Shown one piece after another: positions 19,641 to 21,771 of a stretch of DNA of 21,771 nucleotides. Each line of letters starts with the position of its first letter. Positions within the stretch are counted from its first letter, which is position 1. The translations under genes and the position numbers were made by a program. The notes beneath the pieces are model-generated. The model was not told where the DNA came from and ran no database searches. It was given only the letters and a program-made list of their open reading frames with translations. The stretch covers positions 1 to 21,771 of the IMG/VR virus record IMGVR_UViG_3300023279_000679; one strand, written 5' to 3'. Source of the stretch: a virus.

Positions 19641-19763
19641 ATCTACTTCTCCTGAGCCTTTAAGCTCTCTTTGTTGGTCTTCAAACCGTATTTGCCCATC
19701 CCGAGCGCTCCAATCAGCATACCATTCGCTGTGGTCGTCTATTTCTTCTGATTTATTCCACAT
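19641..19763 (-). other. Unresolved 5' region of ssb: N-extension or tiny gene
   Basis: Two readings exist. In the ssb frame an ATG at 19763 with TTAAGAG upstream gives a 41-residue acidic extension (MWNKSEEIDDHSEWYADWSA...). In another frame ATGCTGATTGGAGCGC begins a 25-residue product (MLIGALGMGKYGLKTNKESL...) whose TAG lies two bases before the ssb ATG, typical operon spacing. Sequence alone does not decide. Confidence 0.4.
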
Positions 19764-19778
19764 TAGACGCTCTTAACC

Positions 19779-19811
19779 TTGTATTTGTATATACTAACGT
19801 ATTATAATCAA
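19779..19811 (+). promoter_or_regulatory. Divergent promoter/operator region
   Basis: Plus strand: TTGTAT (19779-19784), 18-base spacer, TATAAT (19803-19808), driving the HTH gene. On the minus strand TTGATT (19806-19811) with TACAAA (19784-19789) at 16 bases is a weaker match for the recombination operon. The palindrome GTATATAC (19787-19794) and the repeated TACTAAC (19792, 19831) between and beside them may be operators. Overlapping divergent promoters allow one regulator to switch both. Confidence 0.5.
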
Positions 19812-19851
19812 TAAAGCAAATATTTTATTTACTAACAACTAAGGGACAGGT

Positions 19852-20112
19852 ATGAGAAAGATCGAAAAAATTAAATATCCCGTAAAATTTAACATTAAGG
19901 CAAATGGACGGGTAATAGAGAATGCTATCAGACAGTGTGGCTCACAGGCCGAGCTTGCTAGAAAATTGGCAGCCAGTGCCAATGTGAAATGCTATGCCCA
20001 GAAAATTAACGAATGGCGTCTACGGGGTGTAGTTCCACCGTACTGGGTGCGACCGTTGGCTGAAGTAATGAATGTAGAACCGAAGAAGATCGATCCGGTG
20101 TTATATGATTAA
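19852..20112 (+). CDS. Cro/YdaS-like HTH regulator
   Basis: An 86-residue basic protein. Residues 30-75 form a helix-turn-helix region of the Cro/YdaS type: CGSQAELARKLAASANVKCY, then QKINEWRLRGVVPPYWVRPL. The opening PVKFNIKANGRVIENAIRQC and the closing EVMNVEPKKIDPVLYD also fit, as these proteins pair Q-x-x-LA-x-x-L with R/G-x-VP and a D-P-x-L-Y end. Ribosome site AAGGGACAGGT. Divergent from the recombination operon and the likely repressor of its promoter. Its TAA ends one base before the tRNA gene. Confidence 0.82.
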   Translation: MRKIEKIKYPVKFNIKANGRVIENAIRQCGSQAELARKLAASANVKCYAQKINEWRLRGVVPPYWVRPLAEVMNVEPKKIDPVLYD

Positions 20113-20113
20113 G

Positions 20114-20206
20114 GGATGTGAGGCGAATATTGGTGTAAGTCGCATCGGATTGTAAATCCGAATTCTGCTAGACAGGGTGATGGTTCGATTCCATCCACAT
20201 CCACCA
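20114..20206 (+). tRNA. tRNA-Tyr (anticodon GTA)
   Basis: A 93-base gene with acceptor stem GGATGTG/CACATCC, D stem GCGA/TCGC, anticodon stem TCGGA/TCCGA with loop TTGTAAA (anticodon GTA), a long class II variable arm, T arm GATGG-TTCGATT-CCATC, and encoded ACCA end. All arms pair. A long variable arm is right for bacterial tRNA-Tyr. It begins one base after the HTH gene's stop codon, so it is likely processed from that transcript. A phage-borne copy, not a truncated attachment-site remnant as far as can be seen. Confidence 0.93.
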
Positions 20207-20243
20207 GTTAAATAAATAAGCAGCCTGAGATTATAGCTACTTA
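20207..20243 (-). terminator. Intrinsic terminator of large minus-strand RNA
   Basis: On the minus strand TAAGTAGC (20236-20243) pairs with GCTGCTTA (20217-20224; one U-G pair) around an 11-base loop, followed by TTTATTTAAC. It lies immediately next to the 3' end of the tRNA on the opposite strand, so the two transcripts meet tail to tail. Confidence 0.6.
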
Positions 20244-20990
20244 ACGCCCCCTCTCGGTAGATTACCCACCAGTTCCGCTGATGGTTGCTACCTTATCCAC
20301 TACGACTGGTTTCCCACACCGCAGTTAAAGCGCATAGCGGCAGTTTAAAGTCATGCAACGGACTCGAAATAAGGCACTACTCAACGCTTCACTTACCTGT
20401 GTTAGCTGCTAGGCCGCCACAGTGCATTCCACGTTAAACCAGATCAGCTTGGGACTTCTCCGGTTCCATGTTCCCTTGCGGGCATGGATTTACGCTATTT
20501 TCGTACCCTACCAACAGTCGTCTTTCCAATGTGTCGCGAAACACACTTTCAGAGTGTAGTGGTGGCTATTCAAAGCCAATCGCTCCTGCTTATCATGTGC
20601 GACCGCTGGTAGTACCGAACCCGTGAGGGAACAGTATGCTACACACAACATGCCTTTCGCCTGTCGGCTATAAAGCTGATTTTCTCGACATATGATTTCT
20701 CAACCACCGCCAATTAACCTGATCTTTGCCCTTATTTACCAACTCGGACTCTGACCTACCCTTTGCTCTCACTGCTCGCTAATTCTGAATGCCTCTCAGC
20801 AAGGTTTTTGATTATTCACCCGAAATCAGTCTTCGCTTACAGCTATCTCCGACCTGAATCGAAGCTCCAGTACACGACCGGAGAGCTTGGCTTGCTTTGG
20901 AATGGCCCGATGCCGAAGCACCATTGGGTGGGGATACGCAGAAATTCACCCCTTTTTACTGGTTGCCCAGTATTATCACTTCCAAGCGAG
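20208..20990 (-). ncRNA. Probable ~780-nt structured RNA, GOLLD/ROOL-like in setting
   Basis: No plausible gene on either strand. On the minus strand a TTGACA-N16-TATTAT promoter precedes it and a terminator closes it. Hairpins in order: 20957-20972 (TACTGG-GCAA-CCAGTA), 20926-20951 (GGGTG/CACCC), 20901-20925 (AATGG/CCATT holding TGC-TTCG-GCA), 20831-20864 (CTTCG/CGAAG), 20760-20804, 20662-20690 (TGTCG/CGACA), 20609-20642 (symmetrical loops), 20563-20578 (TGGCT/AGCCA), 20543-20557, 20465-20488 (TCCATG, CCC-GCAA-GGG), 20256-20292 (GGTAG/CTACC). Two GCAA (GNRA) loops and a C(UUCG)G loop exist only in the minus sense, fixing orientation. Size, phage origin and a neighbouring tRNA recall GOLLD and ROOL RNAs; family not proven. 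Confidence 0.65.
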
Positions 20991-20996
20991 GGACGC

Positions 20997-21024
20997 ATAA
21001 TAAAGCAAATATTTATGATGTCAA
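20997..21024 (-). promoter_or_regulatory. Near-consensus promoter of the large RNA
   Basis: On the minus strand: TTGACA (21019-21024), 16-base spacer, TATTAT (20997-21002); transcription would start near 20990. The best sigma70 match of the window. No ribosome site or open frame follows, as expected for an RNA gene. Confidence 0.75.
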
Positions 21025-21166: not shown

Positions 21167-21197
21167 TTATAAACACAACCTTTACGGGGAATAAGTG

Positions 21198-21362
21198 ATG
21201 CACCATAAGCGCCACAGACCTAAGAACCGCAGGGCCGGATGTCTAATGTGCAAGCCTCATAAGCAGAACAATGCCGGAGCGATACTGAATCAGTCGCATA
21301 GAGGAGGGTTTGGAAATATCCGTAAGCTAGACGGAACAAAACGAGAGCTAAGCGCCCAATAA
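21198..21362 (+). CDS. Small basic protein with CxxC knuckle
   Basis: A 54-residue strongly basic protein (starts MHHKRHRPKNRRAGCLMCKP, then HKQNNAGAIL). The A-G-C-L-x-C-K-P-H-K core is recurrent in small phage proteins and plasmid-like elements to my recollection; one CxxC pair with nearby His may bind zinc or nucleic acid. GGGGA eight bases before ATG is a good site. It has its own promoter and terminator, as an isolated accessory gene between non-coding stretches. Confidence 0.7.
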   Translation: MHHKRHRPKNRRAGCLMCKPHKQNNAGAILNQSHRGGFGNIRKLDGTKRELSAQ

Positions 21363-21405
21363 AAAACCCACACTTGACAGGGTGCCGAGTGTGGGTTTAT
21401 ATTTA
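21361..21405. terminator. Bidirectional intrinsic terminator
   Basis: AAACCCACACT (21364-21374) pairs with AGTGTGGGTTT (21388-21398), 11 bp, loop of 13. Plus-strand tail is TTTATATTT, ending the 54-residue gene; minus-strand tail is TTTTTTATT, a very strong stop for any leftward transcript from 21406-21771. Confidence 0.85.
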
Positions 21406-21771
21406 CAGCATCGGTGATAGACCACCTTTGAACCTGATTGACTATGGGTTACACGCGCTAATCAGATATTCTTACGCCATATCTGGCGGATTATGCACAA
21501 AAACCTATAGTAGTCAACCTTATCATTGAATAAGTCTATATAACACCGGACAGCCGATCCGCTGAGAGTGTAGGGGTAAAACTGGGCCTGATGTCACAAA
21601 TCCAGTGAAAGATTGCTAACATAAACTGGTCGCCCCCTGACCGTTAGCCGACGTGGAACCTTCGAGGACACAGGACAGCCGATTACTTGTGTGACCATAC
21701 AAGGAAAGGGGGGTAGTAGTGAGTGTAATTTATATCTAAACAAATTATTTCTTGACTAATAACGGCATGGG
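21406..21771. other. Gene-free, structure-rich stretch
   Basis: No open frame longer than a few codons on either strand. Stems: 21434-21439 with 21460-21465 (CTGATT/AATCAG), 21464-21469 with 21479-21484 (AGATAT/ATATCT), competing CGCCA/TGGCG at 21475-21488, AGGGG (21572-21576) with CCCCT (21634-21638), and ACTGG (21581) or ACTGG (21625) both able to pair with CCAGT (21602). The 11-mer GGACAGCCGAT occurs at 21548 and 21673. A TTGACT at 21752-21757 may be a -35 box whose -10 lies outside. A second structured RNA is likely, strand undecided. Confidence 0.45.

Follow-up and report, generated by a model that had tools for sequence, protein, structure and literature searches.

The DNA analyzed here (the window) is the entire 21,771-base IMG/VR virus contig IMGVR_UViG_3300023279_000679, which carries portal and large terminase genes and whose closest cultured terminase relatives (∼41 to 47% identical) include Pelagibacter, Vibrio, and Cronobacter phages. 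Within it, positions 20208 to 20990 had been described in the initial annotation as a gene-free stretch of about 780 bases, and this was borne out: all open reading frames (ORFs) inside it are at most 122 amino acids (aa) long, the five that were tested matched no Pfam family, and the sole PHROGs match among them was a 19-bit hit to a family of unknown type. Two features of the plus strand adjoin the stretch:

19852 to 20112, plus strand: gene for a YdaS/Cro-like helix-turn-helix (HTH) protein of 86 aa, directly upstream of tRNA-Tyr, with a weak PF15943 match (E 2e-4, below the cut-off)
20114 to 20206, plus strand: tRNA-Tyr (anticodon GUA), ending in ...CCACATCC-A-CCA, found by ARAGORN and by RF00005 (43.8 bits)

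On the other side, a basic 55-aa ORF without an assigned family (MHHKRHRPKNRRAGCLMCKPH..., 21195 to 21362) is followed by a terminator-like hairpin, and a second gene-free stretch (21395 to 21760) contains GGACAGCCGAT twice (21548 to 21558 and 21673 to 21683) and folded no better than its shuffles on either strand.

A cmscan search, which the initial annotation had proposed, matched the GOLLD family end to end on the minus strand: model RF02032 was covered from position 1 to 416 of 416 at 20222 to 20651, with 113.4 bits and displayed E values of 1.4e-30 and 7.3e-31. The accession under which GOLLD had been named, RF01998, was wrong, the family being RF02032. In the family-wide study of Kretsch et al. 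2025 (PMC12286853), GOLLDs were recognized by an E value below 1e-5, and the match at ∼1e-30 lies under this limit. A scan at Rfam gathering thresholds returned no match in the window, and as the gathering score of RF02032 is 150 bits, a default Rfam scan misses this GOLLD. That score is a limit set for searches and not a trait of the structure, and the GOLLD of a second virus, G008 (IMGVR_UViG_3300022413_000032, positions 27400 to 28320), also stays below it with 117.8 bits. Both being true GOLLDs, the Rfam cut-off thus misses real members of the family. The setting is likewise that of GOLLDs, which lie in phages or prophages and often near tRNAs: the contig is that of a virus with portal and large terminase genes, and tRNA-Tyr is adjacent.

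Identity to the RF02032 consensus amounted to 42% (163 of 391 letters), and blastn of the stretch against 50,697 phage records gave no match. In the alignment to the model, which was itself fitted to the structure, 83 of the 92 scorable model pairs (90%) were standard pairs, 48 of them through changes on both sides relative to the consensus, and standard pairs fell to 33 to 43% when partners were slid by 1 to 3 positions. Between the window and G008, 28 pairs were changed on both sides yet kept. The 3' domain, its closing helix, and a pseudoknot helix lie as follows:

20222 to 20651, minus strand: conserved 3' domain of GOLLD, from the RF02032 match and the pair changes
20503 to 20512, minus strand: 5' strand of the closing helix of the 3' domain (the [[[...]]] of the Rfam model), from the model alignment
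20368 to 20377, minus strand: 3' partner strand of that helix, from the model alignment
20600 to 20605, minus strand: pseudoknot helix covarying in GOLLDs, first strand (CGGUCG), pairing with 20515 to 20520
20515 to 20520, minus strand: same pseudoknot helix, second strand (CGACUG), pairing with 20600 to 20605

Since the pairs had been counted in an alignment fitted to the structure, an independent test was sought outside the model. In GOLLDs, a pseudoknot of 7 to 8 bp joins the P14/P13 junction inside the first helix to the segment preceding the long closing helix; it is not contained in the Rfam GOLLD model, and it covaried strongly in the GOLLDs collected. A stem of at least six pairs was present in 44 of 50 distinct GOLLDs, made from 28 different strand sequences, with a mean stem score of 17.2 versus 11.2 when partners were re-dealt (maximum 12.9 in 200), a count in which eight sequences were left unparsed and a few misparsed. 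The strands are CGGUCG and CGACUG in the window and GAGGCCAG and CUGGCCUC in G008. On its sequence, the region from 20208 to 20998 (minus strand) is a complete, divergent GOLLD RNA, adding one more member to a known family. The initial annotation had wavered between a divergent member and a new class, of which the former stands and the latter is rejected; homologues show covarying stems instead of codon conservation, as seen in the pair changes, the pseudoknot, and the alignment with G008.

Folding energies pointed the same way, with −266.9 kcal/mol for the minus strand versus −251.0 kcal/mol for its shuffles (z −1.9; 1 of 20 shuffles equally good) and no better folding than shuffles for the plus strand (z 0.05). 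By itself, this energy is weak, and the weight of the evidence lies with the covariance-model match. The two GCAA hairpins and one UUCG tetraloop hairpin that had been noticed in the minus sense could be read directly as CUGG-GCAA-CCAG, GCCC-GCAA-GGG, and GGUGC-UUCG-GCAUC.

Both ends of the RNA carry signals on the same strand:

20997 to 21024, minus strand: sigma-70-type promoter of the GOLLD RNA, with TTGACA (21019 to 21024), a 16-nt spacer, and TATTAT (20997 to 21002), matching the consensus at 11 of 12 positions
20210 to 20244, minus strand: hairpin P27, lengthened into a terminator-like stem (AAGUAGC/GCUGCUU) and followed by AUUUAUUU

A near-consensus minus-strand promoter had been proposed from the first, and it was supported both by the consensus scan and by its counterpart in G008, TTGACA-17-TATCAT, at the equivalent position. 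The RNA would be expected to start near 20990, and the limits first proposed, 20208 and 20990, agree almost exactly with those of the transcript predicted here. The proposed minus-strand intrinsic terminator needs rewording: the hairpin and U-tract exist, as GOLLD helix P27 with AUUUAUUU, and they were absent from the output of the consensus scan. A U-tract likewise follows P27 in 56 of 64 other distinct GOLLDs versus 21% of random flanking positions, which identifies the putative terminator as a GOLLD helix. Because the U-tract directly follows P27, this helix probably doubles as an intrinsic terminator, and it is plausible that such termination is a general property of GOLLDs; in GOLLDs with a same-strand tRNA downstream, processing of the tRNA 5' end could take its place.

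In a set of 50 records, gathered for the most part by way of the terminase, G008 was the one other GOLLD carrier, and it was also the only relative recovered through the HTH protein and the only viral contig with the DNA pattern of this sub-lineage; the same pattern gave 30 matches in genome contigs, by estimate no more than chance. Its terminase is 79% identical to that of the window, its HTH protein 64%, and the following 255-aa protein ∼55%. A search of eight further records closely related by terminase found this last protein in none. The two viruses share synteny, promoter position, neighbor genes (among them the HTH gene, a conserved and convergent neighbor of both GOLLDs), and an RNA that aligns over its whole length. 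They differ in that G008 has tRNA-Ile(UAU) in the linker, in the same orientation as the RNA, a separate strong terminator downstream, and no tRNA-Tyr at the 3' end. Elsewhere, a further record, G097 (IMGVR_UViG_3300042869_000878), was observed to hold two GOLLD copies on one strand (19736 to 20149 and 36280 to 36673).

The remaining parts of the RNA were delimited with the help of G008:

20652 to 20996, minus strand: 5' domain of the GOLLD RNA, homologous to G008, its 5' end placed by prediction
20521 to 20589, minus strand: variable linker without a tRNA, from the model alignment; G008 has tRNA-Ile(UAU) here
20409 to 20412, minus strand: self-complementary tetranucleotide CUAG in the P21a-equivalent loop, read from alignments

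The ∼345 nt upstream of the model match fit a less conserved 5' domain and a total GOLLD length of ∼800 nt. This domain was 69% identical to that of G008 over 158 nt by blastn and could be aligned with it throughout, and in a consensus fold of these two sequences 19 of 86 pairs were kept by two-sided change, a comparison that rests on one relative. No similarity was found to the 5' domains of the other GOLLDs fetched. Neither ARAGORN nor cmscan found a tRNA in the linker.

Taken together, 20208 to 20998 (minus strand) very probably constitutes one GOLLD RNA with its own promoter, a P27 end, and a two-domain fold, which most likely self-assembles into a cage. In a tailed phage, an RNA of ∼780 nt would be transcribed from its sigma-70-type promoter, end at P27 with its U-tract, and fold into a lineage-specific 5' domain and a conserved 3' domain closed by the pseudoknot helix. 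During infection, such RNAs would then most likely assemble by themselves into a cage of RNA only that encloses the linker, as suggested by homology with GOLLD env-38. The latter forms a closed, hollow homo-14-mer cage in cryo-EM (Kretsch et al. 2025, PMC12286853), in which 5' domains cap the half-shells, 3' domains form the ring, and the linker is inside, and GOLLD expression goes up during phage lysis (PMC12286853). A role in infection would be expected for the window RNA too, and cages of this family might hold tRNA, ribosomes, or other cargo. Shared with RF02032 and env-38 are the whole 3' domain, a separate 5' domain, a length of ∼780 nt, the linker position, the pseudoknot helix, the terminal UAAUCUCAG hairpin with its U-tract, a phage genome, and an adjoining tRNA. 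In contrast, the window RNA has 42% consensus identity, a sub-threshold score, no P21b, a 5' domain without detectable likeness to others fetched, and a convergent tRNA. ROOL is likewise a large ornate phage RNA found near tRNAs and forms a cage (PMC12286853); the ROOL models of Rfam 15 gave no match in the window at E values up to 10, and unlike ROOL, its sequence and secondary structure are those of GOLLD.

The cage is put forward as the most likely product with a reservation over P21b. This hairpin is absent in the window and G008, and in env-38 its loop, L21b, makes bridge B9 (PMC12286853), so that assembly could differ from the solved cage. A true GOLLD acting as a monomer or smaller assembly, its lineage having lost the self-kissing loop that contributes to joining the half-shells, is nevertheless unlikely in our view. 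P21b is missing in other GOLLDs too (L095 and L264), and nine further bridge types occur in the solved cage (PMC12286853). Moreover, the P21a-equivalent loop of the window RNA contains CUAG and that of G008 contains GUAC, different letters that are both self-complementary and that fit a retained self-kissing contact; the commonest GOLLD loop at this site offers only a GC dinucleotide. From these two sequences, it is possible that the loops make a contact between chains as needed for bridge B8, which is such a self-kissing contact in the env-38 structure (PMC12286853).

A decaying GOLLD remnant that has lost folding or expression would account for the low bit score, the missing P21b hairpin, and the linker without a tRNA. 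It is very improbable, however, as 90% of model pairs are kept, many by two-sided change, as promoter, pseudoknot, and 3' end are all intact, and as G008 has a near-equal score and likewise no P21b, which makes both features traits of the lineage rather than signs of decay. The reading as a large structured phage RNA of a new class, without relation to GOLLD, drew on the empty Rfam scan at gathering thresholds, the empty blastn search, and a 5' domain similar to one fetched record only; it is ruled out by the end-to-end RF02032 match, the 83 of 92 pairs, and the conserved pseudoknot outside the model, and the UAAUCUCAG 3'-end motif with its U-tract is also shared with GOLLDs. A protein-coding stretch or mere untranslated spacer, to which a 122-aa plus-strand ORF crossing one end might point, can be dismissed outright, given conservation that tracks base pairs, with indels in loops, rather than codons, and the lack of protein families except for one weak match of unknown type.

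The divergent GOLLD described here is thus a family member with an unusual neighbor. tRNA-Tyr lies 3 nt beyond the GOLLD U-tract on the opposite strand, convergent with it and directly after the HTH gene. For comparison, tRNAs were surveyed with ARAGORN, with approximate RNA limits, at 74 IMG/VR loci bearing the GOLLD 3'-end motif, 6 of 80 having been left out for want of a model match. There was no tRNA within 2 kb at 55 of the 74; where present, tRNAs lay less than 150 nt downstream (12 GOLLDs), within the RNA (5), or less than 300 nt upstream (3), and every tRNA within 2 kb was on the GOLLD strand. The convergent layout, suspected early on to be unusual, is therefore so. It is a genuine oddity and not a new system, and as it is known from one contig, it could also stem from misassembly. 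The simplest reading is that tRNA-Tyr belongs to the HTH transcription unit.

tRNAs in the GOLLD linker are already known (PMC12286853; PMC6582537). The linker-tRNA GOLLDs seen here (L102, L116, L162, L167, and L123) were low scoring (∼118 to 185 bits), which suggests a separate branch poorly covered by the Rfam model. The linker tRNA of L116, near 6490, has anticodon CUA and was called tRNA-Pyl by ARAGORN; it is possibly an amber suppressor inside a GOLLD linker. More speculatively, and with rather low probability, the tRNA partner may have left the linker in the window lineage and been replaced by the convergent tRNA-Tyr next to the terminator, in which case GOLLD RNA from read-through would run antisense to that tRNA and the cage would work with no tRNA cargo, whether internal or co-transcribed.

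Adding the pseudoknot helix to the Rfam GOLLD model should sharpen that model. A lineage that does without the P21b contact helps to define the minimal cage. Furthermore, the pair formed by G008, with a linker tRNA, and the window, with none and an inverted tRNA, is a natural test of the cage's dependence on tRNA, and a tRNA-free cage, if true, would separate cage function from tRNA carriage.
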